From the NCBI GenBank assembly GCA_037349105.1, contig JAYJMM010000041.1, positions 9,670,501 through 9,734,500 of the forward strand: 64,000 nt of DNA. The letters are read 5' to 3'. Of this stretch, positions 149-64,000 are shown one piece after another. The first letter of the stretch is position 1; every line of letters starts with the position of its first letter. Source of the DNA: Limnomonas spitsbergensis (Eukaryota > Chlorophyta > Chlorophyceae > Chlamydomonadales). The notes under the pieces were generated by a model. That model saw nothing but the letters and a program-made list of their open reading frames with translations. It was not told the origin of the DNA and did not search any database. A program made the position numbers and the translations under genes.

Positions 149-190
149 ATCAGACTTACCTGGACTGGCTCGCCCTTGATGCACCGTGTC
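149..190 (+). repeat. Echo of the exon at 229 (acceptor plus exon start)
   Basis: CATCAG followed by ACTTACCTGGACTGG and TTGATGCACCG mirrors the true acceptor and exon start (CATCAG, GCATACCTTGAGG, CTGATGCACCG) about 75 bp downstream. It reads as a degraded tandem copy of a 3' splice site plus exon edge. Used as an exon it would soon meet a TGA. Confidence 0.5.
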
Positions 191-228
191 TGACTAGAAG
201 GCAACATGCCCCTGGCTGCACGCATCAG

Positions 229-3200
229 GCATACCTTGAGGCAGAGCTTGCTGATGCACCGCTGGAGCGGTCGGTGTACGTGCTTGGGGAGGGTTTCGGA
301 GCTGTGGTGGCCCTGGCTGTTGCCCTGGACTGCAAGTAAGTGCGAGGAGTGGGTTGGTTAGGGTGGACCTGGAAAGGTTATGGAGCCGTCGTGGCTCCGG
401 CAGTTGCGCCCGACTGCCTAGCATTGTTAGAGTGACATGAAGTAGGTTGTAGATAACAGCATGGAAGTGAGTTGTGGTCACCAGTAGCGCCACTGGCATA
501 TTTGTGGGCCCTCGGGTCTAGGAGTGCATTGAATCATTATCGCGCCTCCCATGGATCTCCGCCGTCTCAAGGTGCTGTGCCGTGTGGTCCTGACAACGCA
601 CTTTCCTGACCTCTGTTTCCTTGCCTAGTGTGCACCTGGGGGGTCATGACACAGCCTCTGCCGATGGCTCTGGCACTTCCTTCATGCCTAGATGCGAGTA
701 GTGGACCTGGGGACCTTGGCATGCCTTTTCCTGGCCTCTATAGCCTTGCATACTCCCCCATCACTCCTTGGTGTTGTCTCTGCAATGATGGACTTTTCAC
801 CTTCTCCTCTTTGATCGCCTGGCTTGCCCCTCCAGTCACTATGTTTATCGCCTTCAGCTGCTTAACCGGAACACTGAACCCTGAACCCTCGTTCCCATTT
901 TAAGGCATCTGGTACACCGCCTGATTCTGGTCAACCCATCCACCTCGTACCCTGCCTCCCTGATGGCCCGCCTGGCCCCGCTGCTGGCCTCGATGCCGCC
1001 TCTGCTCTACGCGGCCATGCCGCTTGCCCTCGCGCCCGCGCTCATCGCGAACAGCGACCCCACCAAGCTGATTGCCGACATCTTCCTGAGAGGCGGCCGA
1101 GCCGGCGGCGGCCCCGCTGCGCCGCCCGAGGTGACGGCTTCGGACGCTGCTGAGGTATTATCGGCAACATTGAATCAGCTGCGTGAGATCCCGCGGCTGC
1201 TGCCAACCCCTGAGGCGCTGAGCCGCCGCTTGCAGCTGCTGGCCAGCGGGGCGGCTGCGGTGGAGCTGCAGCTGGCCAGTGTAGAGCAGAGGACCATGGT
1301 GCTTGTGGGTGGCCGGGATCTTGCACTGCCGTCCGAGGAGGAGGGGAAGAGGATAGCGGAGAAGATGCAACGCGCGTTCGTCAAGGTGGGTGTGTGCCGG
1401 GGCAGGGATTAGGGTTGCTGAGCTGGAGGCGGACATGATGGCGGAGAAGGTCCAGTGTGGATTCGTGAAGGCGCGTGTGCTGGAGCATAGTTAATGATGC
1501 TGAGTTGGAGCAGGGGGACGGCAGGTGCTGGTCCAGGGCTGGCAGAGAAGCAGAACTTCTAATTGGTCAAGGTGGGGCGCAGGGTCTGTCAAGCTCCATT
1601 GTTCAAGGATGGGGTCTCAGTATCCCATGAATTGTTTATTTCAGGGTTCTTCCGTCTAATTCAGCTGCATTCACTAGGCTGCGGAGGCATGGTGCAGGGA
1701 GTTTTGCTGCTCCGGCCACTAGCCATACGTCCTTCAAGGGTTTTGTCCCCGTCTGCTATGACTGGCTGCCCGCTTGTGGCAATTGAAGGATTGTCCGACA
1801 CCGGCCTACAGGAATACATTATATATCTGACTCATGGGTTGCACTGCTTCTACCAGCTTTTCATTGAAGTGTGCTTCACCCGCACACCTCCAATACTCCC
1901 TTCTCTGCAGGTCTTACCTGAGTCTGGCCATGCCCCTCTGGCTGAGCCCAACTTTGACCTGGTGGCCCTGCTGGAGTGTGAGGGTTTCCTCACACGTACG
2001 CGCACCTTTACCTCGCAACCCGGGAGCAGCGCCAGGGCCAGGCGGACGCTCAACAACTTTGGAACAGCTGTGCCTATCGAGATGCCCAGCAGAGAGGTGT
2101 GTGCCGGGAAAGGGGCTGAGGTCCTATGGAGAGCCGGCCTCAGTACTCAGTCTTCCAGGGCCAGGCGTATGCTTAAAATCTTGAGGTTGGCATTTGGCAG
2201 AGCCGGTTGAATGGCCTATCAGAGAGGTTTGGGTGCAGGTTCAACGGCCAGATGCCCAGAGAGGGCAGGATGTCGGGAGCTTAAAAGAACGAACTTGCCA
2301 CTTGCTCTCTCCCCTTCTTTCCATGAAACATGAGCCTTTGTCTTCATGTCCTTCAAAACAACAAACTCCCATTTCAACGAACTGCCCTGTTATCATCCCT
2401 CCTATGACTAGCAAAAAATCACCACCTAATTCCCCTCCCCCCCATTCCTTCTCCTTCTTGAGCTGTTCCTGATCAACCTGGAAGGGTGGATGTGTTGACG
2501 CTGTAACAAGGACGGAAGTGTTGGTTAAAATGCGCGCCAGGCCTTTTGACATGCAGGCCACCAGTAGGCCAATTAGGACCAAAGTACGTTTGGTCTACGG
2601 ACGGTGCCCCAAGCTTCAGGCCACACTGCTTCAAGTGCTACCTGTTACCAAGTCCTGAATGCCTGATGCAGCTGAATTGCATCTGAAGCATTATAAAAGT
2701 GACACTCATCATGTTCCGTCCCCAGGAAGTGATTCGAGCTGGTGCTGCCTGGACCTCTACACTGCGTACGTACTGCAGCCCGGTGTTCTTCTCCACACTC
2801 CCTGACGGGCGGGTGGTGGAGGGCCTTGAGGGCGTGCCGGATGCGGAGCGCCCGCTGCTGTTTGTGGGGAACCACCAGCTGTATGCCCAGGACATGAACA
2901 TCATGGTGAGGCGGGGAAGGAGGGGGGGACCTTCCTTTTTATTTACGTTCTGAGGGAGAGCACAGGGATATGCTGATTGTTGACAAGGGACAGGTATGAG
3001 CCTGCACTGCCACTAGGACGACATCTTGTGCAAGATTACCAGTGGCCGTTCTGCTGGCACCAATCCCTGGTCAACGGAGGGCATTATGTACAGTGTGACG
3101 TCTTTCAGTCTGAGGGACATTGATGGGGTGCACGTCATCACATCAATTTCGGCTGACAAACAAGTAGAACGGTTTGAATATTACAGAATGTGGAGGGGTG

Positions 3201-6200
3201 GGTGATACGGCACAAAGTAGTATAATCGGCTGAATTTGTGCCGTATGGAGGGGTGGGTGACACGGCACAAATTGGCTGGATTTTCTTATCAGGCTTGAGT
3301 TATCGATCCGGTCTATGCTCCGCGTGCATACCGTGTCTTTTGTTTGAATGCCAAGTACACTAGTTGTACAGGACCTACTGATAGCCTGCCTCCCTCTCTA
3401 CCGTTGCTTGCACAGGTTGAGGAAGTCTTCCTCCAGAAGGGGTTGTTGATGCGTGGCCTGGCCCACCCCACCCTTTTCGCACCGCCTGCACCGCCTCCAC
3501 AGCCCAGCAGTAGCAGCGGTGGAAGTGGCAGTGAGGACGCTGGCACCCCTAAGAAGGAGGATAGCCAGATGATGAACTCAAGCATGTCAAATTTGTTTCG
3601 CACGTTTGGGGCTGTGGAGGTCACGCCTCAGAGCTTCTACAGGTAGACAGGCATCATGTATTCAGATTGCTGGTTTATGTTTTCGATTTTAGTGCATGAG
3701 GTGCCAGGATGAATGCTTTATGCTTGTGATATATTTTGAAGATCTTCATTTTATTCATTCTATTGTTTTGCCGAGACCCTCGTGTTTTGTCCAATTTAAC
3801 GTGTACTGGCCAAGGCTCTAGGCAGTGGCTGGGCCTCTCACTTCTGTCAGTATTGAATTCCCTAAAGACAGCTCCAGTGCCTAGAGTGGCATGCCCCGAA
3901 AAGGATGTGAATGTACAGTTATCTTTCATGGCTTGTGACTAACGGATCATGCGTATTGCTTCTGCTTGCAGGCTTTTACAGCAGAAAGAGTCAGTGCTGC
4001 TCTACCCAGGGGGCATAAGAGAGGTGAGGTATCAGATCGTAGGGGAAATTCATGATGAAGATCGCAGGCCTGCAGACTGGGTTTTTTGCCGCTGCTGTTG
4101 CCTTGGATCAATTTATGTGTGTCCTGGATTTGTATGTTCACATGCTAGTTGTGGGCACATGCCCCATGTCCTTTTTAACGTTCGACCCATATAGAATGTT
4201 CAGATCTGCAGGATCTGCGCCAAGGACACGTTCAGACCTGCCACCTGCACATGACAATATGTGCCAGGTACACAAGAAATCCACTTACCCCCTGGCCCTC
4301 GACCCAATCACCTGAAGGGGTCTCCACCTGCTTTGCTCCTCTGTCCCCCTGACCACAGGGTTTCAAGCGCAAGAATGAGAAGTACGAGCTGTTCTGGCCG
4401 CAAAGACCCGAGTTTGTGCGCATGGCTGCGCGCTTCCAAGCAACGGTGGTTCCGGTACGTGACGGGAGAGGGGATCTAGAGCTGCTGGTAGGTGAGGTGA
4501 CAGATGGCGTGTGGCCCGGTCAAAACATATCTATCGTGCTATCACCCGATTTGTTGGCCCCTGTCCTTAGGGCTCATGACCAACTTGCAGTCTTTGCCTT
4601 TCTGCTGGCCACCGTTGCTCCTGAAGCATACCGTAATAGCAGAACTGGAAACCTTTGCCCGGATCTGCACGATGAGCAGTATCTGATCATGGGCAATTGC
4701 GGCCACTCATAACTCGAGAAGAACCTGTTGGGGGGACTGCCAAGATGCATGCGTTTGGTCTGTCATTGTTCCGCCTGTCGTCTGCCTGCAGTGACCTGCT
4801 GACTAGAAGGGTGCTTACTCATGGCCTGTTGCTGCTTGTTGACCACTGGGTTGCATACTTGGTGCTTGCAGCTGTCGGCAATCGGCTTTGAGGACTCCAT
4901 CACACTGCTGCTGGACAGTGATGAGATGCAGAAAAATGCTTGGCTGGGTGAGAGGGCAGTGGGCAAGAGAAATGCAGCCTCAAATGTTAGAAAGTCTGTA
5001 TTTGTTTGGTGACATTTGCATGATTGGATTGGTGATTGGTCATTGATGGTGCAGTTTCAGAGAGGAAAAAGCTTGCCAACCTGGGGCTTACCATCCTGGG
5101 CACCAGGGTGTTAACCAGAGGCTCGCCAAACCAAGTACCAGGGCGTGAACCTGCTCAACGCCTCCACTCCTGAAGGCCTGTCACTACAGGACGGTTCGCA
5201 GATGGGACATTGTCTCCAGATTGGGTAGGGCACCAGCAGCCACTCCCTGCCCATCCACTGCTTGCAGACGTGGACCCCCTACGCCTACCCCTACCTCTAC
5301 CCTACCCGGCCCATGATGTTAGTGTGCCTTTTGTGGACAGCTTTCACTGCCTGATGGTGTTTTATTCCTTCAGGACCCAGAGTGCAAATGATAAGGTGTG
5401 GCGTCTCGCTCTGCCATTTTGACTTAAAACCTTGCCTGCCGGCTGCGCTGTTCCTGCAGGCCCCAAGGTGCGGGAAATTGATGCGGCCTCCCGCTCCGCA
5501 AGGTCCGGCGTGTCCTTGGACCCGGACAACGACCAGTCTTTCATCCCACCCCTAATTGCGCCCCAGGTACGACCAGGCGCAAAGCCTGTGGCAGACTAGG
5601 CGCATATAATGAACCCTTAAAGCTGACTTAGAGCTGACTTGGAGCTGACTTAGATCTGACTTGGAGCTTAACCCTAACTATGCCCCAGATAAGACAGGAG
5701 TGTGTCAGATAAGACTGGGCTATGTCAGGGTGACACTGCCTGTGGATGGGATAAGGTCGCATCAGGGGCACACTGGATGTGTGGGGGCAAAAAGACACAC
5801 ATCAGTGTCCTTTCCACACCCCTGTCCACGGGCTGGGGTGGAAAGGATACACTGACTGTATGTGGCTGAGCTGTGGTGTAGGTTCCTCTGCCCTCACCCA
5901 CGCCTGGACGACCACGGTGAGGACACCGAGTGTTAGATGATGTATATGAAGGCCCCGGGAGTGGTATGCATGGATTTGTAGCTTGCATGTGGTGCGGTAT
6001 GTGTGAATGTGCTCCACTTGAAAAACTGGCTTGTTTGTCTTGTGTCCCCTCCTGCAGATCCCTGCCCGCATGTACTTCTTGTTTGGCAAGCCCATCCCCC
6101 TCACACCGGACCTGTATGAAGACCGAGCCAAGTGCCAAGAGGTGTGATGACAAGAAGCTATGGTCACCATGTATCGCCTGAGTACTGTGCTCGTATACTT

Positions 6201-7119
6201 TTTTTCTTTCAGTGTGTGTGCACAACTGCACTTACACGCTTCCTCTTTTGGACACTCTGTGGAGGTCTCGGACCTTTGCGTGTGAGGACCAGCGCTGGTG
6301 GCACACACTGAAGCTCTTAAGATTATGTTTACTTTCCCACATCCCGTCCTATCCAATCGACATGTCTGCATCCCATCCTTACGATGGACATGCCCAAATC
6401 CCACCGGACCACATCATCCCATCTGACGCCATGTGGATTTCAGCCCTGGGACATACCGTAGTCTATCATTTCATCTTTCAACACACTTGCATCATTATTG
6501 TGCTGATGTAGTGGCGAGGCATCCCCATGCTTGCCCATATGTTCCCGTCACACATCATTGGCATTGTCTTCATGCTTTATATTGCTTCCTCACTTGCTTG
6601 CGTTCCCAGGTTTACGGGGAGATTCGTGAACAGGTGGAAGGGGGCATTGGCCGCCTGCTGCGCAGCCGGGAGCAAGTGAGTGCAAATGGGTGACATAGAA
6701 ACTACCGTTAAATAATTACCAATTCTGGCAGCCTGACGGTACTGTCTGGCCCTTTTACAAAAAAAGATATGACTGGATGTCATAATGCTAGAATAGCAGC
6801 ATGACTGCCCTCAGCACTGTCTCGAGAGGTACGACAGGCATCAAGTACCAAGCCTGTTAAGTGATGCTATGCCCGAGCCGGCAACTATTTCCTGGCCACT
6901 GTTTCTGTGAATAAGATGACCTGTACTACATTTTGTCTGAAGACTGGTTGGGTGTCACGGACCTCTAACTGATGATCTCACCGGCTGCCCCTGATCTGCT
7001 CATCTGGTCATCAGGATCCGTACAAGGATTTCATTCCTCGTTATCTCTACGAAAATCCGCCCCTGGGTGGTGCCAAACGTAAGGCACCTACGTTCTCCAC
7101 TCCAACGTCGAGCAAATGA
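229..7119 (+). CDS. Phytyl ester synthase / diacylglycerol acyltransferase-like protein (5' end outside window)
   Basis: Exons: 229-335, 905-1385, 1911-2096, 2726-2905, 3416-3642, 3972-4023, 4359-4454, 4872-4947, 5460-5566, 6058-6141, 6610-6675, 7015-7119 (stop TGA). All borders are AG/GT and phases join to 588 codons. The N-terminal half is an alpha/beta-hydrolase: a nucleophile-elbow strand VYVLGEGFGA, an Asp region GGRDLALPSEEE and a His region PESGHAPLAEP. The C-terminal half is an LPLAT/DGAT-type acyltransferase with FVGNHQLYAQD, RGLAHPTLF, LLYPGGIRE, ELFWPQRPEFVRMAARF, FGKPI and a DPY..PRYLYE tail. This order is that of plant PES1/PES2, plastoglobule enzymes that esterify phytol and diacylglycerol with fatty acids. 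The elbow reads G-E-G-F-G instead of G-[DE]-S-x-G, so the hydrolase serine is missing. A possible extra exon near 5055-5150 was not used, because the exons at 4872 and 5460 join in phase without it. Earlier exons lie left of the window. Confidence 0.88.
2108..2275 (+). repeat. Echo of the 3' part of the exon 1911-2096
   Basis: CCAGGGCCAGGCGTATGCT and ATCAGAGAGGTTTG echo CCAGGGCCAGGCGGACGCT and AGCAGAGAGGTGTG at the end of the preceding exon, donor region included. A further AGATGCCCAGAGAGGG at about 2250 repeats the same exon end. The copies are degraded and not open in the exon frame. Confidence 0.5.
3188..3290 (+). repeat. Imperfect tandem duplication, about 57-bp period
   Basis: GGAGGGGTGGGTGA(T/C)ACGGCACAAA occurs twice inside an intron of the phytyl-ester-synthase-like gene, each time followed by an ATTGGCTG-like segment. 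No coding sense. Confidence 0.55.
5618..5670 (+). repeat. 12-bp tandem repeat
   Basis: About four to five copies of AGCTGACTT(A/G)G in the intron between the exons ending at 5566 and starting at 6058. Simple intronic repeat. Confidence 0.7.
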
Positions 7120-7388
7120 TTCCTCGAGTGACTGCCACGTAGCTAGATGATGGGATGATCAGTTGACAGATGTTGCAACAGCACCTCAAAGCTAAACATG
7201 TTTGTGGCCTGAAGTTGTTACTATCGTCTTCGCTGTTGGATATAATAGTGATAGGACAGCCGGTATATAGCATCATGAGGCAATTAGTGTCTCATTCCAT
7301 CATTTGTGACTTTGTGCCGGGGCTCCGTGTTTTCTTGTGTTTTTGCAGTCCAGTGCACTGCTTGGGCTCCTAGGAGGAGCATAAATTG

Positions 7389-7393
7389 TGTAA
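7389..7393 (+). terminator. Candidate TGTAA polyadenylation signal
   Basis: TGTAA, the usual poly(A) signal of chlorophycean algae, lies 270 bp after the stop codon of the phytyl-ester-synthase-like gene. Confidence 0.35.
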
Positions 7394-8222
7394 CCACGAA
7401 CTGCCTCCTGGACTACTGGCCCTGGTCACAAATATGGTAAATGTCATTGCACTTTATTTACAGACATTCCCCTCTTCTTCTGTGTGTTACTGACGTTCCA
7501 CTATCGGGATTTAGATCTACGTCTGTCATTCTACAGGCAATTAGCGAACCACACGGTCCTGCAAGCGTGCTGGCGACACCCCCTACAAGATCTGCTAACA
7601 CTAGGCTTCTGCCCCCTTGTTCCTACTGCAATCTGGTGAGGACTTTGCAAGTCAAGAACGGATGGCAGGTACGGCACTATGCAGGGGAGGCCTCGCCTTC
7701 CTGCTTTTCTGCTCACTAGTTTTAATCTGGCGGAATCCTCCTTCGCCTTCTCAATTCTTCCCACCTTGCTGGCCGGGCTGCTTCTAGATGTCTCACGTCC
7801 CGCGTGGATGTCACACGCCCTGCGTGGGTGTTGCCTTTTGCACAGTGTCCGCTCAGCTCCGCGTTCCTGCGGGGATCCTTTGGCACACCCACAAGATTTC
7901 AACCTTGGATGTTCTATTCACAAGTTCACTTCTGTCAATGATGACAAATTGGATCCACCTGATCTCAATCCGCAGTCACACAGGAAAGTATCTGCTGGGT
8001 GTATAAATCCACAGCCAGATCTTCAAGCCTCTTCTGGACTCAACACTAAGCTGCCACGCTCAGTGATTCTCAGAGTTTAACTTGGCAATCTCTCTCTGGA
8101 GATTACCACAGCAAAGTGCAGTTCAAATGCTGTCCAAGGTCGTTTGTATGCAAACAAATTTCCAATTCGCTGCACAAGCACCTTTAGCAGGAATTGGCAA
8201 ATTGAGCTAATCAGGCTAAATC
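7394..8222. other. Intergenic, no gene seen
   Basis: I see no splice-bounded coding segment with a recognisable motif. The frames at 7679-8080 (+) and 7531-7902 (-) overlap each other and show no family motif. Confidence 0.5.
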
Positions 8223-8224
8223 TA

Positions 8225-8672
8225 CTTCGTCCCTTTCTAAAGGACACGCGATGTGCGCTTCAGGTCCGTGGCGGACTTCTTTCCTCACGGCAGTGATGGA
8301 CGCCTACGGGCAGGCTCAGTGACTATTCACTGGCTGCGAGTGCTCTTCGAGTTAAGCAGCGGGCTGGTTATTTGTGTATATAGCAATTGACTTAGGGGCA
8401 TAGGCCTTCTGGCCGTCTGGTCGCGAACCAGCCGGGCTATGTTAAGGGCACTTACCGCGTATCACGCGGAGAGATGGACGGGACGTAGGCTGCGTACTTC
8501 TTCTTCTGCAGGGACTCGTTTCTCTTACTGGGGTACTTGTCTCCAGCTAGTTCAGTGGAGGCTGAGCTAGGCTTGACTCGAATTAAGGTACTGACTTATG
8601 TGTAAGCTGTAGGTCTCGAAGACGTCCGGTGCTTGTTACAAATAGAGGTCTGTCCTTTAGAAAGGGACGAAG
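8225..8672. mobile_element. Stowaway-like MITE (Tc1/mariner type), 448 bp
   Basis: A perfect 22-bp terminal inverted repeat starts CTTCGTCCCTTTCTAAAG at 8225-8246 and is mirrored at 8651-8672. TA lies immediately outside both ends (8223-8224 and 8673-8674), as expected for a TA target-site duplication. There is no transposase frame inside, so it is non-autonomous. Placement in the Tc1/mariner (Stowaway) class rests on the TA and on the GTCCC-containing inverted repeat. Confidence 0.75.
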
Positions 8673-8674
8673 TA

Positions 8675-9839: not shown

Positions 9840-12708
9840 TTACATGAACAGCCCGTCAAAGTACTGTTCAAAGTCTTCCTCCGCCGTGGCTATCTCTTGG
9901 GCAGGCTTCTGCTCCCACAAGCTATCATCGCCAGGGAGCACACTGGCCTGCTGCTGCTGCCCTTGTGCCTGCCCAACAGCTGATCCACCAGGCCTTGAGA
10001 ACGGCGGAGCCATGGAATCTGGCTTCCCTGCGGCCAGGCAGGCAGGGAGGCAGGCAGGCAGGTCGGCACTGTATCACTCATCACTTCCTTTGTCTTTCTT
10101 TTCCAGCCTTTTGTCTGCCCCCCGTATCCCCCCTTTTCCTCTTTTTTTCCTGACCCCTGGTGTTTGTTTCGTTTTGTCCTCCCAACCCTTTAGTTAGGCC
10201 CAGACGGCCGAGCCTTTTGAGCAGGGCCCAGAGGTGTCACGTCATTGACTGAATCACTCATATCACTGATACCGTAATCTTCGCTTTCTCAGAGGAAACT
10301 GCGTCCTCCCTGGGGCACACATGCTTCAGGTTACCATTCAAAATGCTCTCCCACAGCATGAAAGTTCGCAACACCGCCGCCCCATCAATTGTGCTCGGTC
10401 CAGATTTACACACCCACGCCCTCACCCACATACCTGGCAGCTCCACCGGATCCAGCGTCTCCCCTGCCGCCACCCGTCTCAAAAGCTCCTCAGCCGCTCT
10501 CAGGTTGGCCCGTTTGGCATGTCGTTCTGGATCTCGATCCTCATCGGATCCAGATCCGTCTCTCCCTCTTCGACGTCCATGAGTGTCCTTGACCGGCTGC
10601 GCCTTTTGGTACTCCTTCTCCCGCTTGTAATTGAGCTTCACGGCGCATGTTGGGCAAATGCGCAGCTTCACCAGGGCCTGCGCGGATGTGACCATGAGCT
10701 TCAGCATTGCAATCATAAGCATGGGGAGCATGGACGCTGTGAGGGTGCATATCGGGTATTTCGAATTGAGTGCGCTAACCACAAAGTGCGAGATAAAGCA
10801 TGATGAAGCACTCCTCTCTCCCTTCAACAAAGTGCGAGATAAAGCATGATGAAGCACTCCTCTCTCCCTTCAACAAAGTGCGAGATAAAGCATGGTGCTC
10901 TTTTGCAGCACTCCTGTCTCCCTTAAACAAAAACGATTGAGCTTGAGAAACAATGTGAGCAATAGAGCACATGAGCTCATGCGTCCGCACCTGCTTCTTT
11001 TGCCCTGCTTCCATGTACGCAAAATTGACTTCGTAGCTGCACAGCCCTGCCTTCTCGTCACAGCCCTTGGTGCCACAAAGGAACTGGCCCTTGCCGGAGA
11101 CCACCTCCTTCTCTGTGCGCCACCTTAGACCTATTGGAAGGGGCGCGATATGTGGTTGAATGGATCCTTACCTTTCGGGAGGAATGGGAATCACAGAGCT
11201 CAAGCAGGCAGCCCAACACAATCAGACAACAGAAAATAAATATTCAGGAGGACACACTGAACCACGACATAAAACTACAGAGCCTGAGGGTCCGGAAAGA
11301 CATTGTGGTCATCTGCGCTCCCTCCTCCACCTGAATACGCGAATTGTGGGTACGAGACCTCAAGGCTACCGTTACATTCCCAGCACTGACCGAGCTTGGA
11401 CTCTTTGAACCTTGACAGGTCAGCGATGCAGTACTCTTTGAACAGGCGCTGGTAGTAACGCCGAGCTAGGCGCACCTGCAACAGAAAGAGCCAGATTTGC
11501 CAGTATTTCCTTTTAGGAATACCCACACCCACACCCACACCCACGCACAGTATCACTCAATCTCCGAAATGCGTTTTCAGTCCAAGAGGTCTCGTCAAGC
11601 TAAGGACCCCTATAAGCGTCCCATGCAGCGTAACAAGGACTGACAACATGAATGCCTCACGAGTGACCGAGGGACATCATTGCCTCACAAGCATGGCGGG
11701 CTACCGGTATGCTTCAAAACCCATGCTGCAACATGTGGAAATTAGAGAGGCTTTACAGAGACATCTAGAGAAATGTCTCAAAGGCCTCTCTAAGTGAAAG
11801 CTTGCTGCGCCCCTGCCTGGGTGGGAGGTGGCATGCTCACCTCCCAAGCGCCACCTGCAGCATCGTCTTGCTCAGTCCTGACAAAGCGGTGCGCACGCTG
11901 GAGCGCAGTCAGGTCCGTGTCCTGCAGCAGGATACAGGCTTTGGGCGTCAATATGCGAGGCATAAATCGGTGGGAACCTGTGAAGCGTTCAGAATTTATT
12001 TTGCCATGGTCCAAAGGTTGGGCTACACACTGATCGTTCAAAAGGCAAAGCATACCCTTGATGGATAATAGTCCCGGGGGCATGCTTGAGATTGGGCATT
12101 TAGGGCAGACCTGTAGAAACTGTTTTGTTAATACCCAAGTGGTTTGCAGAGATCTGTCCCATGCGCCTCCTAAGCACCCAACAAGCTGATACAATTATGA
12201 AATCTTACCCCCCTCTAGAGTATCGGTAGGGTACAATTTTAAGAGTGGAACCGCTCATTTGGATGTCCATGATATTTGAACCCATCATCTCAGCTTCATG
12301 TCCCACATAACGATGTTGGTCAATACCTGCAGCAACCCAGCTGGGTCAGAGCTCTGTGTAGCTGCCTGGCCTCCACCATAGAATGCGACGTAGTCCTGAA
12401 CGCAGCAGCAGAAGCATCAGTAGATGCAGCCAGGACAGGCATGGTCATTGAATAACGTCAGGCACCCTTATGCAACTTAGCTGAGAGCTTTATCACGCAT
12501 GCATGCTCCCTGCTGCTGAGCTCCTACCAAGAAGTAGCACATGTATATCAGCACATGTCAATATATGCATTGTCCTGTTAGACTCCTTCCAAGAGCGACG
12601 TACCTGCATGTAGGCCACATGCCGCTCATGTGCGGAGAGGCTCCTGTAGTATTGCTGCTTTCCCACACTGTCGTATGCGGCACTCTTGGCCTTGTTGAAG
12701 CCGGCCAT
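9840..12708 (-). CDS. FRA10AC1: FRA10AC1 homologue (spliceosome-associated nuclear protein)
   Basis: Minus-strand exons: 12708-12604, 12395-12327, 11921-11841, 11475-11391, 11130-10991, 10677-10434, 10027-9840. All borders are GT-AG and phases join to about 302 codons plus TAA. Landmarks in order: SAHERHVAYMQ-DYVAFYGG, TDLTALQRAHRF, RLARRYYQRLFKEYCIADLS, RFKESKLGLRWRTEKEVV, SGKGQFLCGTKGCDEK, YEVNFAYMEAGQKKQ, ALVKLRICPTCAVKLNYKR, then a charged and Gln-rich tail ending EEDFEQYFDGLFM. Each block aligns with animal and plant FRA10AC1, a protein found with C-complex spliceosomes. The Cx4C...CxxC pairs look like a zinc ribbon. The ATG sits just before the conserved start; an extra upstream exon cannot be excluded because AG precedes the ATG. 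The gene is divergent from NOT1. Confidence 0.9.
10072..10261 (+). mobile_element. 5'-truncated LINE tail with 9-bp target-site duplication
   Basis: ATCACTCAT flanks the insert at 10072-10080 and 10253-10261. The insert (10081-10252) is only a LINE 3' end: a pyrimidine-rich stretch, then CGGCCGAGCCTTTTGAGC, AGGGCCCAGAGGTGT and CACGTCATTGACTGA. The same 3' signature ends the longer LINE at 34795-36345. It sits in the last FRA10AC1 intron, antisense to the gene. Confidence 0.8.
10781..10927 (-). repeat. 46-bp tandem repeat in FRA10AC1 intron
   Basis: ACAAAGTGCGAGATAAAGCA starts at 10781, 10827 and 10873, a 46-bp period, with two near-identical units and a diverged third. It lies in the intron between the exons ending 10991 and starting 10677. 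The copies carry many short open frames that mean nothing. Confidence 0.85.
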
Positions 12709-20200: not shown

Positions 20201-23200
20201 CTATTCCAGCATGCACAGGGGGTGATCATTGAGGTGGCCGGTGGTGGTGGCGGCGTGGGGGGCGGCAGCGGTGTCAGTGGACCTCCTGGGGATCTTCAGG
20301 TGTGTTCTCACCCGACGAGAATAACGCTGAGCCCTTCTGTTATGTGCCTGTATGGCAGTATGGTATGTCCACTCTGTTCTGCATCCCGACATGCACCTGC
20401 ACCTGTCCCCTGAGGGTGCTCTAGCTTAAGTGTATGCTCACCCTGGCCAAAGGAAGCAACCTTGATTGGCCTTGACTGACAGTTCGGCCCCCATGCCGGC
20501 CCTGGCTCTCTGTTATGGCCAAATAGTAGCGAACGCCCCCCATGCTTCATTCAACATAGGCATTCAATTCCAAGCACCCACGGCGCATTCCCTTATCTTC
20601 TTGTGACGTGTCTCCCCCCCCTACTTAATCCTTCTGCTGCCCAGGTGAACGTGAAGCTGGACAGCATCCCCTTCCTGGGGACCCCCGTCAGCCCACATAG
20701 CGGTAACGCAGAGCCGCGGCAGCTGTTTGCTGCGCCCCTCGAGGTAGCTGCAGCTGGCGCCACAACCGTCCCCAAGGACGGCCTTGCAGGCATGACTGCA
20801 GCCAATGCAGCAGCAGCAGCTGGTGCCGCTAAGGCCGCGGCTTCGGTTGCCGCGCTGACCCTTGGGCAGCAGCTGCAGCAGCTGTCAGGCGTAGGGGCAC
20901 CGGGAGCGCTGCCGCCTCTCGGCCCCTCCGCAGCAGCAGGCGTCGCTGCCGTTGCAGGTCCCCCGAGGGGCACAGTGCCCCTGGGTCCTTCACACCGGAT
21001 CGACACAAGTGTGGACCTGGAGGATAAGGAGGACAATGACCTGGCGGCTGCAATGGCCGCTCAGGTGGCGAGCTCTTCGCTGCAGCCGGCCAATGCACGG
21101 GATGCACCTTCCCTGGCGGCGCAGGTCAATACGGAGTCGCTGGAGTCGGCGGCAGAGAAGTTCAAGGACTTTATAGTGCCGCCGCCATCAGCAATGGTAC
21201 GCCCTACAAATGTGCTCTGCCTTTTGGACGTGGTGATGTGCCTGTCCTTTAGGAAAATGAATTGTTGATGCAGTGGTTTTTTGAGAAAGTGTATCGGTAC
21301 AAATACAAATGTGAGTGGGGAAAAAGCTCTTGGTAAATAATTCGGCTAGATTTCCCATGGTGAGGGAACATACAATGTGTTTTGTCTCAGGTGCATGAGG
21401 ATGCTGTCCTGTCCTGCATGTACCCCAGCCTTTCATTATGACACCTGTACTTGCTGCACCCCTAGCTAAGCAATGACTACCGTACATTTTAGACACATTT
21501 ACATGGATTTGAAAACGAGCCTTTTGTCTTGAGGTCTTCGGTAGCAAATCAGCCTGCATGTTTGGATGGACCTGGGCCAGTCCGCCAGTCAGATGCCTCC
21601 ATGAATGTGGCCTGGCTTCCGACAATTGTTTGGGATGGATCGGGAGGAAGTGTAGGTGTACGGTACAAATGCAATGATATCGTTTGTTGGATTGCCGCTT
21701 TTTACGCGATCAGACGAATTTGATGACCTGAACCACCAAACCAACGTGTCAACAAATCATTGTTTGCTGCTACAGCAGTCTGATAACTTTTAATGGATCT
21801 TTACTGTTTGATGATCTTGACACGTTCCGCTGCCCCAAGCCCTATGATAGCTGGTTCACTTTGAACTGTCCTGCCTCTCCCTTCCTGCTTGCAACACGGC
21901 AGCAACCTGCGACAGAATCCTCCTCAGCAGAAATCCCATGGTCTTCTTCCCAGATCCACTCTCAGATGCCCAATAGCATATCCCGGTTCCGTTGCCGAAT
22001 TTGATATTCCCCCTCCTCCTGACAGGACCGCATTCACTTCCTGATCAACAATATGACACTTGCCAACGTGGACACCAAGGTTGGGGACCTTAAGGCCAAG
22101 GTGAGGGACAGGCTCAAGCAAATATCAGTGGCACGGGCATGCAGCAGTTTCGAATAGGATCTAGATCTTTATACTGCTAGATCTGTACCCGGTCTGTTTC
22201 CTCAGACCCAATGATACATTGCCATTATCTCAACAGCTGCCACCTCGTCAACTGCATTGTAGGCCATCGCGTCACCTCTTCGCCGGCCAGTTCCTTCGAT
22301 GCCATATCTTGATTTCCCTTGCCATGCACACCCTGCCTCACGGCTTAACAGGTCTTCCCGGACTACCTGGCTTGGTTCGCCAACTACCTCGTGGTCAAGC
22401 GCGCGGCACAGGAGGCAAACTACCACACGCTGTATGTGGCCCTCTGCGACAAGATGGCTGACAAGTATGTGATCAAGGGCCTACGGGGGCATACAACATT
22501 GCGATACATAGATCACGATAGTAAGGGATTTGACACGATGTTACTTCATATGCCTTATAATCCACTATTCAGGGTCCCTGGATTTGGTCACTTCAGGGCC
22601 CCTGTAATCAGGTCCGTGATCATCTAGGCATTGCCTGGATCACCCAAATGATCTATTCCAGGATCATCCAAATCATCCAGCGATCAACACACGGTGGCCT
22701 TAAAAGAACGGCGGCCCTAAGATGCCTGAACACATTGGCATACAAAATGCGACCTGTTCCCTGCAGTCATGGCAAAAGCACGGTCATTCAAATAGTGTTT
22801 CGAAATGTGGCCAAGCGAATCCAAACTCTGTTGGCTGCAACCCCCCTGACATCAATTGATTTCCCCCCTCGATTTCCCACCTGATTTATTTTCCCCCTCT
22901 CGTGGCAGGGAGTTGTACAGCCTGCTAATCAAGACGACCTTGTACTACGTCAAGATCCTGCTGTACAGGTAAGGCACATCTAGATCCCAATAGTGCTTGA
23001 CAGCAATTGTGTTCATGTTTGCTGCCATTGTTTCCCGTTGGCCAGAGAAAGCCGCAGACCAGAGCTTGCAATATGCACCAACCTGATGACCCTCTGATTT
23101 TTCTTTGATATTTCTTCGCAGCGAGCGCACGGTCAAGGAGTCTAATGACCGCGCCTTGCTCAAGAACCTGGGTGTGTGGCTGGGCCTGCTCACCTTCGCC

Positions 23201-26200
23201 AAGAACAAGCCAGTGCTCAGCCGGGAGCTGGAGCTAAAAAAGGTGATGCCTCACTCACCCTGAGTTCATTAAGGCGCTTGCGTGTACGCCAAGACATGCG
23301 TCTTGCATGCGCATGCCTGTTGCTGGCATGCCAGCCTTCAAGTTCCATGTCCTCATGCGTGCGCATGCAACTAGGCATGTGCCCACTACTGCCCAAGCTT
23401 GTGCATGCGGTTGCGCTCCCCGCATTTTGTTGACCATTTCCGCATGCTTCCCTGCAGGTTTTGATTGACGCGTACCAGCGAGGACGGCTCATTGCTGTAC
23501 TCCCCTTCATGCAGAAGCTCCTCGAGTGCTGCAAGGTAAGTCAAGCTAGGTTCTGCTCTGCTGCCGTCGTACCGGTTTCCATGAACCAGTGCCTTGCACC
23601 TTCCTAGTTCATCATAACTTGTGAGCCTGCCGGTGCTATCAAGAATGAAACCAGAGGGTGTTTTTCAGGATCCTTGTTTTCTTTTGTCATCCCACTGCTT
23701 CTCTCCCTTTTCCCGTATTGTTCATCCAGGACTCAAAGGTCTTCCGCCCGACCAACCCCATGATTGCCGGCGTCCTCAGCCACCTGGCCGAGCTTCACTC
23801 CCTCAAGGGCCTCAAGATCAACAACGTGTTCTGCATCGAGCTCGTGTTCAAGGCGTTCAGCATCATGGCGGATGACGTGAAGCCAACGGACGTGCTGCGC
23901 AAGCTGACCCGGGAGCGTCAGTGCAACCAGGACTGGGGCATGGAGAACCTTGTGGGCGAGGCGGAGAACACCACGCCGCTGCCCGACTCCAAGACCGCGG
24001 TGACGTTGTCATCTCAGCAGCAGCAGCTACAGCAGCAGCAGCAGGGGTCTATCACGGGGCAGTCCACGGCTTCAATGCAGGGGTCGCCAATGGCAGGCCG
24101 CGGAGGTGCGTCACGCTAGCCTGGAGCCTTAGTAGCCCTATGTCACCAATGGCCGTTAGCCAAGCGCTCTCAGATGTGTCTGGTTTAGGTCGAAGGGTCT
24201 GCTCCAATGTGTCCACAGCATGATCTGTTGAGCAATGCACTTAGCTGGTACTCGAACATGCAAAATCGTCCACTGCAGTAACCCAGGCCTCAAGGAAGAT
24301 AACTCCAAAACAAATTGCTAACACGCCCCTTCCCATTGTCACTGCAGGGTTGCAGTCCGTGCTGGGGGGATCAGCAGGCGCACAGCAGCAGATGCAGCAA
24401 AAGCAACAGCAGGACGGTGCGTCAGTGTTACAGGGTGTCCACGTTAGAGCTTGGTGTGCTGTGCGATATGGTCACTCTGTCGATCACTCTTTCTCACTTC
24501 ACCTCACTGGATTGCCACCAGCGAGTGTCCTTTCGCCGCATGAAATGCAACCAATCCAGATTTATACTTTCAGACATTGCTGAGACCTCTCCCCGTCCCT
24601 GTTGACCTTCGTCCTCCGCACAGGCAAGTCTGGGTCTGGCATGATGATGGGCTCCACTGACGGCGGCACTCCCGGGGGCCCGTCTGCGGGTGGCGGCAGC
24701 GCTGCTAGCTCCCCCGGCGTTGACCCTGCACTGCTGGCCAACCTGCACCAGCTCATCACCATCAACCCGCAGCTGGCAGCCTACGTGGCTCCGCTGCAGC
24801 TCAAGAGAGTGGTACCACCGGCTGTGGAGCGCGCTGTGCTGGAGATTTTGACGCCTGTGGTGGAGAGGTAGGCAGCAGTGTTGATTTCAGTGCGCGTCTC
24901 ACCCCCATATCAGGCAGGCTGATAGGCAGTTGTACCGTTGGGCCGATCGGAATATAACCTGGATGGGTCTATGACAGGTGGGCTAAGAAGCAGGGCTTGC
25001 TTCACATGCTCCCCAGGCCGTATGATGTCATATATCGGAATGACTGCTGAATTGCATTGAAAAAGGAAAGCTAGGCATAAGTGCCTTGACGGGTCAGGTG
25101 GTGATGCTGTGGCTCAGGTGTCAGGGCCGGGGTTATGACAGGAAGGGGGCTATGACGCTCAGACTGTTTCAACAAGACATGGGTGCACTCCTCTTGCCCC
25201 TCACCTTGGTGAGGAATGCCCTGGTTGTTTTCCCTAATCTTAGCTCCCCAAGCTCATCACTTATTCCAGTGAGCGAACAGTCTCCCTTCCCCTGTGACCC
25301 CTTTGTTCTCAAGGCGCCCCCTCCCCCTTCCATGTGACCCCCTCATTCTCATGTCTCACCCCACCCCTTTCCTTCGAACTCCTAATTCTCAAATCCCACC
25401 CACCCCTCCCCTGTGTCCCCCTAATTGTTGTGAACGTGTCTCACCCCACCCCTCACCTCAGGTCGGTGACCATTGCCTGCTACACCACTGTGGAGCTGCT
25501 GGTCAAGGACTTTGCCATGGACCCGGACGAAGGCCGCATGCGCAAGGCGGCACATCTCATGGTGTCCACGCTGGCGGGTAGCCTGGCGCTGGTCACCTGC
25601 AAGGAGCCGCTGAGGGCGCAGCTCAACGTCTCCATCAAAGCCCAGCTGCAGGTGGGTGGGTGTTGCATTGTTGCTGGAGGGTGGCTGAGACAGCTGTAGG
25701 TGGGTGGGTGTTGCTGGAGGGTGGCTGAGACAGCCTGGGGCGCCTAACATTGGCCATGCGCTAAAGCCACGGTGTATTCCTGTAGAGGTTAAAAAAGGAT
25801 TCCCTGGGCCCCACCTCCCCTCTTGCACTCACTCTGCTTGGACTCCCTCCCTGTCTGTGGCCCCATCTGACAGCATTGGTACTGATGTGCTGGAAGACAC
25901 CGGAGGTGGTTGAAGGATGATCTTTGCATTGCTCTGCCACACACACTTCTCAGCCCCGCCCCAAGCACTCCCTCCTTGGCCCCGCCTCACACTCTCCCTT
26001 TACTCCCTTCACCTGGACTCCCCCCTCCCTGTATGCAGGCCCAGGCTGCCAACATTGGCGCTGACGTGTTGGAGAACCTGGTGGGGTTCCTGGTCCAGGA
26101 CAACCTCGACCTAGGCTGCAGCTTCATTGAGCGAGCAGCCATGGACAAGGCCATCCGGGATGTGGACAAGCTGCTGCAGATGCCGTATGAGGAGCGCCAC

Positions 26201-29200
26201 AAGGCCAGGGCGCAGGGGAAGCCGTTTTCGGACACGTCTTCGTTTCACGGCAGATTCCCGCAGTCCCTGCCGGAGAGCCTGCGCCCGAGGCCCGGACAGG
26301 TAGGAGGCTGGCCAGCATGATCCCAAACCTAGGAAGCACTATCGCAAGGCCCTGACCAGCCAAACTGATTTTTGTTCCAGGTCAACGCCCAGATGCTGCG
26401 TGTGTACGAGGATTTCGCACGTATCCCGCGGTCAGTAGCGGCTGTGCCCGGTGGGAATAGCGGCGTCGGTGTTGGTGGCGGGCGGTTCACAGACGGAGAC
26501 GCCAAGCATGGATCGGCAGACCCTGCTGCGTACCTCGAGCGGTACGGATGGCATTCATATGTGTTGGCTGGGTTATGATGGAGAAATGATAAGGCCCCCC
26601 TCGGCTTACCGGGGCAGAGCTCGACCTATGCCTTTGTTATTGCATTTAGCCGGTCGACCTGTTGATGACGAATAAATAACGTCATGCTGCTGCTGCGTGA
26701 TAGTTGTGAAAAACGCTCAGTTGAACCTGCTTGGACCTTTCAAAGCTCTTTCATACTGAGTAGCCTCCACCCGAGCTACCAGGAGCTTAACCTAAATTGG
26801 AAGCGTGTATTTGACTGATGACCCCTTGTTTTATTTGTGTTCATTCAATTAGAATTGTTTATATGTTCGGTGATGCAAAGGTCGACATCACCCTTGACCC
26901 CGAAATTCCTTTTTAATCCTTGTCCCCGTCTTGCCCCTTGTCTGTGTTCCACAGGTACATGCAGTGGCAGGCCCGCTCTGACGCGGCGATCCAGTCCAAG
27001 GATGCCGAGGGCCCTGGCGCCGACCAGACCCACCTGCAGCAGCTGCTCCAGGAGGTCAGCTTGAGTGTCAGTGAGGCTGGGGCGCCTGCGGACGATGTCG
27101 CGGTGTTCCTGTCCCGCCGCCTGCTCAAGCACCTTAATGATGGCGGATCCAAGCTGCACACGACGTTCTACGTGGCCTGCCTGGAGGCGCTGGTGTTGGG
27201 CCCGGGGGGCAAGAAGCTGCCTGAGGAGCTGGCCAGGGTGAGTGACGAGGGAGGAGGTTAACGCGAATCCTGGGGGTGGTGTGCTTCTACTTCCCCAAAT
27301 ATTGTATCTGGTAGACGTCTGAGAGCTGCTGGGTATCAGGTTTTTGCCTTAGCTAGTAGGGGAATGGGAGCTGCTGAGACTTCTAAAATGGTATGTGCTG
27401 ATGAGAAATCAGAACTTTTATTCGGCCTGCGTGTCTAGAGAGCAAATGGTGGTGATACCTCCAGCTTCAACAGTGGGTAGCTTAAATTCAGAACGTCACA
27501 CCATTGTTTCACACCCTTGGGACGCATATGCCCTGCCTGCCAGCCTGTCGTTCCCCCCTCCCCTCCTTGGTGGTTCTTGAGGACCTATGCCCAACCCACC
27601 CCTCCCCAGTCCCCCCTGTTCCTAGTTAGTGGTTGAAGACCCTCCCCCTTTCCCTCGCGCCCTCCCCTTTCCAGTTAGTAGTTGACAAAACTTCCCCCCT
27701 TCCCCTCCCCTTCTCTCCCCTCCCCCTTCCCCTAGTTGGTGGTGGACGAAGTCAGCCGCGTGAGCAAGGAGGTGGTTGAGGTGCTTGCCCGCGGCCGCCT
27801 GCTGCTGCTGCCCGAGCTGGACAAGGAGGTGGCCAAGGTGCTGGTGGGCGGTGGCAAGGGCATGCAGGGCGCCTCAGAGCTGCTCATGCACCTCATCAAG
27901 ACATGCATGCTGCGTATGGACTCGCCGCTCAGCTACTTGGATATGCCCAAGAGCTTGGACATGCTAGCGCAGCTGGCGTCTCGCAACAGCGGCAACGAGA
28001 CCATCCTACAGGTTGGTGGTGTGAGAGGGACGGGTCTCCATGCGCGCCCTCCTGCTGGACTGGACCCACCTGCAGGCAAGTTCTTTGCTCTGGGCCCATA
28101 CCTGCCACCGCTTGACTGGAACCGCCAGGCACCATGCCTGCCTGGCGGTTCACATGACCTGCTTGCTGGATTCTTCTGCGTTAAATATCTAAGATGACAG
28201 GCAGCAGCCGCCGCCCCAAACCAGCTTACCTGGTTGTGTTGGAACTCTGCGTTTTTGCCCGAGGGGGGGAGTCACCCCCCTCATCTGCTTGAGTGGCCCT
28301 GCCCTAGCCGCCCGCTGTTCCTTTTCGGTAAGCGTTTGAAAACCTTCGCATGTTGTCCGCCTCTTTTGCAAACCAAGTGTAACCCTTGCCCGGAATATTG
28401 TCACGAACTTGAGAAAACGCCCGCTCATCCGTACCTGTGTCCTTAGGCACTGGACATGGCTCGCAAGGCCAGCATGCTCGCCTCTGATCCTCCCTACCTG
28501 TGTCCTTAGGCACTGGACATGGCTCGCAAGGCCAGCATGCTCGCCTCCGTGGCGGTGCGGCCTGCCTCTGAGATCCCCAACATCGTGCGTGACAAGGCCG
28601 ACCCTGAGGGGCTGCGGGACCGCGTCATCGTCCTGTTTGAGGAATGGCTGCGGCTGTTGCCCACGGGTCCGGATGAGAAGGTGCGGAGGGGGGCACTGCT
28701 GTGATTGGGGCGTTGATGGCTGCGGAATAGGGTATGTAACTTGTTGCTGGTCTCAAGCACGAGTGTGTCCAAGAGGAAACGGAAAGTACGTAAGTTCCAC
28801 CTCATCAGGAGAGGGTACAGTTGTACAGCAACATGTATCAGTACAGGTCATGCTGGCTTTAAGGTCTGGGGCAGCAGATGAGGGTTAAGTGTTCTGGAAG
28901 GCCCCGGGTACTCTTTATGCAGAAACCTCGCAGTGCCTGATTGCCTAGATCGGTCTGATGTCCCCACGAGTCCATCCTCCTTTCCATCGATATCTGAGGC
29001 ATATCGTTCTACCTGGTGCACACGGCTGGCATGCTTGAGCTTGATGACGCAACACACCGTTTCTCGACCCCTGTTTCTTAAGTTCTTACTTCCTTCTCTA
29101 ACCTCTTTTCCTACCTGCTGGACACAGCTGGCATTTGCTTGGTTGTTTCCCCTCATACGCCCATCTTCGACTGGCTTCCCTCTACAACTTCCCCTTCACC

Positions 29201-32200
29201 TACTGCTCACAGCTGGCATGCTTGATTGCATTCCCTCACACGCCTCTGTCCTCCACCTACTTCCTTCCAGAACCTGTCCTCCTACCTGCTGGGTCTGCGC
29301 ACGGCCGGCATGCTGGAGCTGGATGACACCACGGACCGTTTCCTGCGGCTGCTGATTGAGCTCAGCATCAATCATGCCTTGGTCAACATGGAGCCCATGC
29401 AGCAGCAGGTACGACAGTTGGTTTTGTAATGGAAGGGTCAATGTGTTTGAATTGGTCTCCTTGAAATTAAGTTGCTGTTTCATTTGATACGAGGAGGATC
29501 TTTCCCCCTCTAGGGTCCTTGCCTCCTAGAGTGTGATATGCAGAGTAGGTCCAATTGCTATGGCGATGGGCGCTACCGCGACTCGCTCCTGTTGGCTGCG
29601 ATAAGTGCCACCAAAACTCATGTGACTTAGACGCTTCTGTTGGTCGGCGAATGTTATTGGCACGGATCCAACTTTTGAAGCGTTGTATGTAAATGCCTTT
29701 GATTTTGGCTCTCTGACTGTTTGAGCCGGGTCTTCCCCTTTCCCCTCCTTCTCCTCCACATCCTATTGCCACAACAAGAGGCCTCATTCCTCCCTGCCCC
29801 TTCAGATCGCTGCTGGGCGCGAGCCTGCTGCCCTAGTTGCAGGGCCCATTGACAGCCTGATCCGGCTCGTGAGCGTCATTGTTGGCCACGGGGGCGGGGA
29901 GAGCTTCCTCACGCGCTTCCTTGGAGTGTTGGTGGGGGTCATCAAGCGGGACGCAGATGAGAGGTAGGTGGAGGGAGGGGGGGAGGAGGAGGGGGTGAAG
30001 GTTTAAGTGGGGAAGGAATGTAATTTCGGCGGCTAAACTTGACCTCGCAAAGCATCACCTTTTAGCGACGGGGAGGTGCAACCAGGGTCTCAGGGTATTC
30101 GTGCCATGGAGGTTACAATGGAAGTGTGAGGGGTGGGTCAGGGCACTTTGGGAGGCAGGTATTGAGGTGGGTGCAGGCTACATTACTTTTGATAGTTCAG
30201 GCAGATTCTGAGTACTTGATGACCTGCGGGGGGCAGATGGATGGTTTACCCAGAAGAAAGGTTACCCTGAACCCTGGATATGGACACCAGGGAGTGGTTC
30301 CAGGGATACTTTTCAGTCCCAGGCCACCAGGCCAACACAGAAGTCATGGAAAAATAAGGGTCTGATCAGTGTGTAGCTCGAATGCAGCCTTAAAAGCTGT
30401 TCACTCCTTGTTTATTTTATGTGTGTTTGTGTGTGTCTTTGAAAGTGAGAGAGATGCAGGAGGTATGGATGCCGTGGTGCCTCAAGCACGTGCAGATCAA
30501 GCATAGCACCCTCTCTACCCAGCACCCAACGCCTGTACCTACCAACCCTGTGCAGGGGCACCGCTTTCAACAGCCGGCCCTTCCTGCGAGTGCTGGCAGG
30601 CCTGGTCGCAGAGCTGAAATCTGCCGATGCAGGTGACACTTCCAGCAATCGGTACGTCAAGGCCATCGGCCTGGCCATGTACAAGCTGCAGCCAATCAGC
30701 GTGCCCAGCTTTGCGTTTGCGTGGCTGGAGCTTGTCGCACACCGGACCTTCATGCCATGGATGCTGGCGTCGCCGCAAGGGTTGGGCAGCGCAATCTATC
30801 AGGCACTCCTGTCTTCGCTGCTCAAGTTCCTAGAGCCGTACCTGCGAACCGCCGATCTCAGTGAGTGCCTCGTCAGCGTGTGGAAGCTGAACTCCTTTCA
30901 ACACTTTTATTGTACCGCAACTCCAGAGTTTTAAGTCCAAACTGGCTGGACATTCTTAAACCAGTGAAAATCCTATGCACCTGTTTGCGGCCATGGACCA
31001 AAACACTGCCCAAACAATAGAAAGTTGTGTGCACTACATCACTTCTGTACAGAAGTCACCTCCCTCTTGAATGGCAACAACCTGCTGTCGTCAGCAGGTT
31101 GTCGCCATTCAAGAGGCAGGGCATCCAGACAAGGGCCTGCTTGCCCGCTGTTGGTGCTGCTGCATGACTAGCTTTAATCGTCAGCCTTCCTCCTAATCAG
31201 TCCCCACTGTACCGGCAACAGGGTACGTGTCCTGTATTAGGGCACGCTGTGCCTGCTGCTGGTGCTGCTGCACAACTGGCCTTCAATCCATAACCTCCTT
31301 CCTTATTCTTAATCTGCTGTCTTCAGGCGAGAGCATACGCATCCTGTACAAGGGCACGCTGCGCCTGTTGCTGGTGCTCCTGCATGACTTCCCGGAGTTC
31401 CTCTGTGAGCACCACCACGAGCTGTGTGATGTCATTCCCACGTCGTGCATCCAGATGCGCAACCTCATCCTGTCGGCCTTCCCGCGCAACATGCGGCTAC
31501 CAGACCCCTTCACGCCCAACCTCAAGGTGGGGAGGGGCTGCCAGAATGGACCTTTGCGACCAAACAGTGTGTTTAGGTGTAAACTACTGAGCAAGACTCA
31601 ATGGTCACCTGTCTCTACTACAGAGTATAAAAGTCAAATCATGACAAAGAGTTCCCCTGAGAGTCTTCCCTTGCTTGCCGCACGTCCACTCTCTATAAAC
31701 ATTCATTAACAGGGTAATACCGAATGCAGGATTGCAAGTTTAAATATTGTTTATCAACATGTTCAGCGTATATCCATAAGCAACGACCCTGAACCTGTGG
31801 GTACCCTTCACTTGCAACGCAGACAAGATAGCCTGGCTGCTGTCCCCCCAATTAAATTGGTTTCTTATCCACCCAAGAAAACAATCAATTGCACGGAAAT
31901 TTGTTGTAGTACCTTCTTGCTGTGCCCGGAGTACTTTCTTGCAGTGCCCTGTCTCTCTCGCTCCGCCGCCTGCATGGGAATCCCCATTCCTCCGTCCTCC
32001 CTCTCAGGTGGACATGCTCATTGAGGTCAGCCAACCTCCGCGGCAGCAGCTGGATAAGGAGCGCCTGCTCCCAGAGGGCCTCAAAGCTCTGGTGGACCAA
32101 TATGTGCGCAACCGCACTCCTGCTACACTGCCCCAGGTGAGGGGGGTGGAGGTGATTTGTGCAGGGGGAGAGGGGAATGGAGGGGAAGATAGTGACCAGG

Positions 32201-63930: not shown

Positions 63931-64000
63931 CTACTCCTACCCCTACCTCTGTCTCTGCCCCTGCCGCGTCCCATGCCATCCCACTGCTTCAACCCCTGCC

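Follow-up and report, generated by a model that had tools for sequence, protein, structure and literature searches.

The window analyzed here is a 64,000-nt stretch of the green alga Limnomonas spitsbergensis, located on contig C41 of the 260-Mb assembly, and it contains two plus-strand genes whose introns carry what we call echoes: partial, decayed copies of the neighbouring exon boundary. All ten echo sites listed in an initial annotation of this sequence lie inside these two genes. The first is an esterase/acyltransferase-like gene with 12 visible exons (229–7119) and a spliced open frame of 588 aa, its 5′ part lying beyond the window; in Pfam, its product matches DAGAT above the cut-off, and Hydrolase_4 and Acyltransferase below their cut-offs. 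The second is NOT1 (14231–33960), which has 33 exons and a spliced reading frame of 2126 aa. Its first 558 residues match a homologue named CCR4-NOT subunit 1, the scaffold subunit of that complex, and the best match comes from the green alga Haematococcus lacustris (46% identity).

A complete homeolog of NOT1 (N57) is present on contig C57, with counterparts for all 33 exons of the window copy and no internal stops. The two products are identical at 1946 of 2110 aligned residues, and the nonsynonymous (dN, 0.041) and synonymous (dS, 0.337) divergences fit purifying selection on both copies. We used N57 as the outgroup. Because several CCT chaperonin genes also form matching pairs on different contigs, the genome seems to be widely duplicated; these pairs across contigs (NOT1 dS 0.34) seem to derive from an old whole-genome duplication or a hybrid origin. 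NOT1 and several CCT genes are apparently paired between contigs C41/C57, C39/C99, C36/C119, C37/C62, and C84/C114, of which C41/C57 and C39/C99 were compared at the sequence level.

To assess the listed sites, we queried with 60 nt of exon joined to 25 nt of intron and compared each score with those from 500-nt stretches of unrelated introns. With the splice side included, nine of the ten sites reached p≤0.01 and all ten reached p≤0.014: p=0.001 at seven (those starting at 18022, 19424, 25690, 25800, 28432, 29009, and 31138), and p=0.003, 0.009, and 0.014 at 2108, 27555, and 149, respectively. Exon letters alone gave no significance at 149, 18022, 25690, and 27555, so the signal at these four sites comes from the splice site and the intron side, and the weak individual sites at 149 and 27555 may be due to chance. 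We also examined all 86 edges of the 43 introns in the window blindly, with exon letters only. When mismatched introns served as the control, ten edges (4 donor, 6 acceptor) showed an echo at p≤0.01; with shuffled introns, nine did. This analysis yielded two unlisted echoes, at 371–417 and 1420–1470, and two weak ones, at 5638–5688 and 22245–22271.

All echoes catalogued in the window are on the plus strand; fractions below give matching positions. In the esterase-like gene, the acceptor edge of exon 229–335 is echoed at 148–186 (31/42, with the splice side) and its donor edge at 371–417 (35/47, p=0.001). The donor edge of exon 905–1385 is echoed at 1420–1479 (36/51 over 1420–1470, p=0.001; the end at 1479 was taken from the serial-echo count), and that of exon 1911–2096 at 2160–2231 (46/72, p=0.003). 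The weak echo of the donor edge of exon 5460–5566 at 5638–5688 (34/52, p=0.001) overlaps an 11-bp tandem repeat.

In NOT1, two of the copies are mostly intronic: the donor site and intron start of exon 17718–17894 recur at 18020–18058 (30/39), and the donor site of exon 25462–25651 recurs at 25691–25714 (23/24), both at p=0.001 with the splice side. The remaining catalogued NOT1 echoes are of acceptor edges. That of exon 19589–19795 lies at 19440–19540 (64/81 over 19440–19516, p=0.001), and that of exon 26039–26299 at 25839–25911 (56/77, p=0.001). Short echoes of exon 27736–28011 are found at 27552–27692, the best being 20/23 at 27552–27574 (p=0.009 with the splice side). A recent duplicate of the acceptor together with 38 nt of exon 28510–28680 occupies 28425–28484 with a lag of 63 nt (56/57 over 28428–28484), and the homeolog is unduplicated at this position. 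Exon 29271–29408 is preceded by three serial echoes, at 29017–29048, 29087–29121, and 29164–29225 (series defined by an uncalibrated cut-off), and exon 31327–31526 by two, at 31100–31166 and 31214–31272; the best of each series has p=0.001.

We then extended the analysis to the 600 nt adjoining each of 238 exon edges from the two NOT1 copies, the esterase-like gene, and the CCT genes. For the CCT genes, edges were placed with Pfam matches and a small gene finder, which had been trained on the two NOT1 copies and the esterase-like gene. As this finder fused too many genes in the 164-kb neighbourhood, we counted only Pfam-backed exons, NOT1, and the esterase-like gene; 56 of 72 CCT matches in Pfam were used and edges distant from a match were dropped, leaving 87 CCT edges. 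An echo was found at 36 of the 238 edges at p≤0.01, compared with about 2.4 expected from real mismatched introns. The weak echo at 22245–22271 was not recovered in this 600-nt test. Reverse-complement queries were positive at only 2 of 238 edges, and exon-interior queries at 6 of 145. Two of the 36 positives (the acceptor of NOT1 exon 17 and the donor of exon 22) match the neighbouring exon, not the intron. The CCT genes, which lie on other contigs, have echoes at 12 of their 43 acceptor edges and at 5 of their 44 donor edges. These results indicate that the echoes are real and recur beyond the window, and that on the sampled edges they are far more frequent in an exon's own introns than in mismatched or shuffled ones.

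According to the initial annotation, most echoes copy the acceptor side, sometimes several times in a row. The acceptor bias holds in a mild form overall: 24 of 119 acceptors were positive at p≤0.01, as against 12 of 119 donors, and in an offset profile, in which 60-mers were scored for a copy in the adjoining 600 nt, the counts were 24 of 114 versus 11 of 114 (Fisher p=0.026). It is reversed in the esterase-like gene (acceptor 0/12, donor 4/11). Serial echoes were counted with an uncalibrated score cut-off, by which 12 of the 36 positive edges have at least two, with a maximum of five, and four have none.

The annotation had further envisaged a process acting at exon boundaries. In the offset profile, 178 of 1414 intron 60-mers had a nearby copy, as did 35 of 228 at exon edges (the first or last 60 nt), with no significant difference between them (Fisher p=0.24), whereas 60-mers lying 60–180 nt inside exons had one in only 6 of 272 cases. 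An earlier profile over whole introns gave a local copy for 97 of 428 interior intron windows. We therefore reject targeting of exon edges: the phenomenon is local duplication all along the introns, extending into exons by some tens of nucleotides. Of the echo blocks, 28 of 36 extend through the splice site, which points to unspliced sequence as their source and disfavours spliced RNA. The copies are direct and close by. The best echo has a median lag of 131 nt, with 60–255 nt in 30 of 36 cases, and a copy of an exon edge lay beyond the wrong end of the exon in only 2 of 235 cases.

Several copies are nearly head to tail. At the acceptor of NOT1 exon 24, a 57-nt copy (28428–28484) is separated from its source by 6 nt of filler, the sequence being single-copy in the homeolog; similar arrangements are found at locus L018 (86-nt series) and at N57 exon 19 (59-nt series). 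Tandem Repeats Finder (TRF) reported an array over the junction at 10 of 238 edges, compared with 0–3 per 238 in a grafted null, and of the 36 blocks, 6 have copies that come within 20 nt of abutting and 18 have copies that come within 60 nt. In comparisons of homeologous NOT1 introns, 20 of 51 length differences of at least 20 nt consist of local direct copies, compared with 3 that are inverted copies. Of the 7593 inserted nt, 3777 fall in inserts with local direct copies, a figure that also takes in some sequence that is not copied, and 6404, the larger part, were inserted on the C57 side. Thus, the annotated proposal that recurrent local duplication, followed by decay of the outer copy, lengthens introns is supported.

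The homeolog also allowed the echoes to be dated. At positions that distinguish the homeologous exons, echoes agree with their own exon 72 times, with the other exon 34 times, and with neither 16 times, indicating that the echoes are of mixed age, some older and some younger than the homeolog split. Three sites have the same or almost the same lag in the two homeologs (131/131 at the acceptor of exon 19589–19795, 112/111 at that of exon 31327–31526, and 108/108 at the third), as old events inherited by both would predict; for the third, repeated events or gene conversion could also account for the agreement, because each echo there sides with its own exon (by 3 to 0 and by 2 to 1). Conservation of shared echoes was considered and set aside: at five of six shared sites the two echoes are less alike than each is to its own exon, some pairs at NOT1 exon 25 being about equal (0.64 vs 0.60–0.63).

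Further repeats were noted in and around these genes and in the second NOT1 copy. NOT1 intron 3 contains a minisatellite at 16460–17337, with 22/58-bp units running in opposite strand sense in its halves (16460–16620 and 16821–17337); this intron measures 988 nt in the window copy and 377 nt in the homeolog. Intron 23 of the second NOT1 carries an array with 137-bp spacing (L011, C57:156111–157353) and is 1838 nt long, versus 498 nt in the window copy. A near-perfect inverted repeat at 31059–31120, in NOT1 intron 27, matched its own reverse strand at 90% in the genome search, and at 56946–58703 a 32-bp unit is repeated about 55 times. Outside both genes, tandem duplications at 10781–10894 (46 bp, 2.5 copies) and 36118–36171 (24 bp, 2.2 copies) are probably young because they are perfect, and the process may thus not be confined to the two genes.

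The initial annotation had also suggested that the process moves splice sites, which our data do not bear out. The splice dinucleotide is retained in 29 of 51 echoes, about the proportion expected if copies of roughly 75% identity had decayed neutrally, and we saw no sign of selection to keep or destroy outer splice sites. Splicing at any of the 15 NOT1 acceptor echoes with a mappable junction would shift the reading frame or introduce a stop, and AG remains in only four of them; in the recent duplicate at 28425–28484, use of the outer acceptor would give an in-frame stop. Therefore the inner site is presumably used and splice sites would stay put. Consistent with this, all 33 exons are paired in the homeolog, and no new intron position was found between the two NOT1 copies, the gene in which intron gain was examined.

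A subset of the copies is separated by telomere-type sequence. TTTAGGG-type runs of at least 12 nt occurred 18 times in the sequence examined, versus 0–2 times for each of 19 other heptamers of the same composition. Isolated 13-nt telomeric runs numbered 1060 genome-wide (control 0), some clustered in arrays, and contig C1, among the matches listed, begins with a CCCTAAA array. Direct copies flank 11 of 14 clusters of runs of at least 12 nt, compared with 24% of random positions. In a strict copy-tract-copy analysis, 9 of 23 tracts qualified versus 9.6% at random (p=0.00016), or 8 of 20 when arrays were counted once (p=0.0003). Moreover, a telomeric run of at least 9 nt lies within 300 nt of 6 of 36 echo-positive and 6 of 202 echo-negative edges (p=0.004).

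Individual sites were read by eye. At the acceptor of N57 exon 2, a 21-nt copy surrounds 25 nt of telomeric letters, and both copy and filler are absent from the homeolog; this site does not count among the 9 of 23, as its flanks were not picked up automatically. At the donor at 3248 of locus L055, where the exon end was set by the gene finder alone and the homeolog has a similar exon end, copies identical at 42 of 43 positions enclose a telomeric tract, and copy and filler are again absent from the homeolog. The acceptor of N57 exon 22 is a weaker homeolog-absent case (13 of 14 pyrimidine-rich letters). A clean empty site in the homeolog was shown for the N57 exon 2 and L055 sites only. The L055 tract (3291–3319), between near-identical donor-site copies, has units of both strands facing each other (TTAGGGTTT then CCCTAAA). 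Degenerate CCCTAA-like arrays also occur in the window at 60450–61203 and 63794–63947, about 1 Mb from the contig end.

Taken together, direct duplication occurs throughout introns of several gene families, as insertions relative to the homeolog and at mixed ages. The reading we consider probable is that introns accumulate short local direct duplications through repair of staggered breaks, the echoes being decayed outer copies. Short direct duplications would arise in or beside introns, and those inside exons are rare, presumably purged by selection. A duplication across a splice site would survive when the copy adjoining the intact exon stays in use, leaving the mRNA unchanged; with the inner splice site used, the outer copy could decay freely into an echo, making the intron longer, and further rounds would give serial echoes. 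For the duplication itself, breaks with staggered ends may be filled in on both sides and then joined. Since telomere-type filler lies between the copies in a subset of cases, telomerase, the telomeric fill-in machinery of CST and polymerase alpha, or both may sometimes act on the ends before joining, a step from anatomy to enzymes that we infer.

Several observations weigh against this reading. TRF arrays span the junction in only 7 of the 36 positive edges, and in 18 of 36 blocks the gap or overlap between the copies exceeds 60 nt; some of this, but not all, arises because a farther copy of a series was picked (as at L018), and part may represent spaced, templated insertions. Homeologous introns are only about 69% identical where aligned, which makes single indel calls uncertain. 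As for the telomeric filler, 9-nt seeds give only a modest excess (34 clusters vs 25 for the best decoy), and the variant TTCAGGG is unremarkable (46 vs decoys of up to 69). Flank copies at 9-nt seeds exceed random positions only at a low cut-off (25/73 vs 20% at score 15; 15% vs 13% at score 25). The C39/C99 gene pair accounts for six of the 14 long tracts, L055 by itself for five of these, and most echoes have no telomeric filler, including the window's youngest, with its 6-nt filler. A reiterated unit that already contained telomeric letters would likewise give a copy-tract-copy arrangement.

Among the alternatives, templated insertion is possible, although we doubt that it is the general explanation. 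A break in an intron would be filled with a copy of nearby DNA, by synthesis-dependent strand annealing or theta-type joining, and the two copies need not touch; the many blocks with a spacer agree with this, and such insertions are known in human, with partial exon/intron sequences among the donors (PMC2671141). Templated insertions may, however, be inverted or distant, whereas the copies here are almost exclusively direct and on the correct side (exceptions 2/238 and 2/235), and several young cases abut. Ordinary replication slippage with unequal exchange, by which tandem repeats in introns would expand as minisatellites without break repair, appears unlikely as the main source. It accords with the clear arrays in NOT1 intron 3 (22/58-bp units), at N57 exon 19 (59-bp unit), and in N57 intron 23 (137-bp spacing), but not readily with first duplications at single-copy sites such as 28428–28484, and it would not be expected to leave telomeric filler between copies. 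An origin of the echoes from one dispersed repeat family or introner is very improbable and was rejected on 3 of the 43 introns, since in the 260-Mb assembly introns 28681–29270 and 30861–31326 match only themselves and the homeologous gene, intron 336–904 matches only itself (lower-bound counts, as the search skips simple repeats and very common words), and the echoes match their own exon. For the set as a whole, chance or pyrimidine tracts of low complexity, which could be invoked for the four listed sites lacking significance on exon letters alone, are just as improbable and are rejected by the mismatched-intron comparison (36 edges vs about 2.4).

Repair by staggered-break fill-in has partial precedents. 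CST-guided fill-in by polymerase alpha-primase at 3′ overhangs generates small tandem duplications (PMC8355091). Like the copies described here, these are short, direct, and local; they form at breaks with complementary overhangs, and a telomere complex is involved, as it may be in our case; the system is experimental, in mouse and human cells, and the accessible text describes neither intron-wide accumulation nor telomeric filler. Mammalian interstitial telomeric sequences are inserted during break repair, sometimes duplicating their flanks (PMC2246262). They resemble our cases in being short internal telomeric runs, some with flank duplication, absent from the related locus, but according to the part available duplication is a minority outcome there (6 of 130 loci in rodents, 4 of 25 in primates), whereas we approach the phenomenon from the duplication side, in introns. 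Human repair-mediated proximal duplications (PMC2671141) likewise place local copies near their source, including splice-site sequence; as far as that report could be consulted, copies within 50 bp of the source were excluded as tandem and partial exon/intron donors numbered 4 of 824.

Other likenesses concern gene structure and algal telomeric repeats. In a potato RdRp gene, one tandem duplication across an intron-exon boundary, at the acceptor, is reported to have created a new intron (PMC4974935), whereas here the outer copies decay within an existing intron. Tandem duplication of coding sequence near splice sites also alters gene structure in Drosophila, where the report in its accessible part describes novel intron positions (PMC2891723); none was found between the two NOT1 copies. 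Internal telomeric repeats are likewise known in the green alga Chlamydomonas reinhardtii, with chromosome end fusions suggested as their source and, in the portion available, no mention of duplications or of introns as their site (PMC6549138). Known break-repair work accounts for each element separately, as far as the available parts of these reports go (PMC8355091, PMC2246262, PMC2671141). Among the titles and abstract openings listed, mostly from outside subscription journals, neither intron-wide exon echoes nor telomeric filler at exon-edge duplications were described, and what seems to be new is the density of scars in introns, the serial, datable exon echoes, and the telomeric filler in some of them.

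Intron growth is usually attributed to transposons and small indels. In this alga, local duplication scars make up a measurable share of intron sequence, and the echoes across exon edges can be dated against the exon copy because that copy is held by selection. The telomeric filler links intron duplication to a testable repair route. It is conceivable, although on present evidence rather doubtful, that telomere-maintenance machinery acts at staggered breaks along genes, where it would extend and fill in the ends and leave a duplicated flank after every repair, whether or not telomeric filler is added, and that this repair, not transposons, would be the main engine of intron growth, with the echoes as its dated record. 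Introns of this kind would contain outer splice sites that must be ignored, and would thus offer a natural test of splice-site choice.

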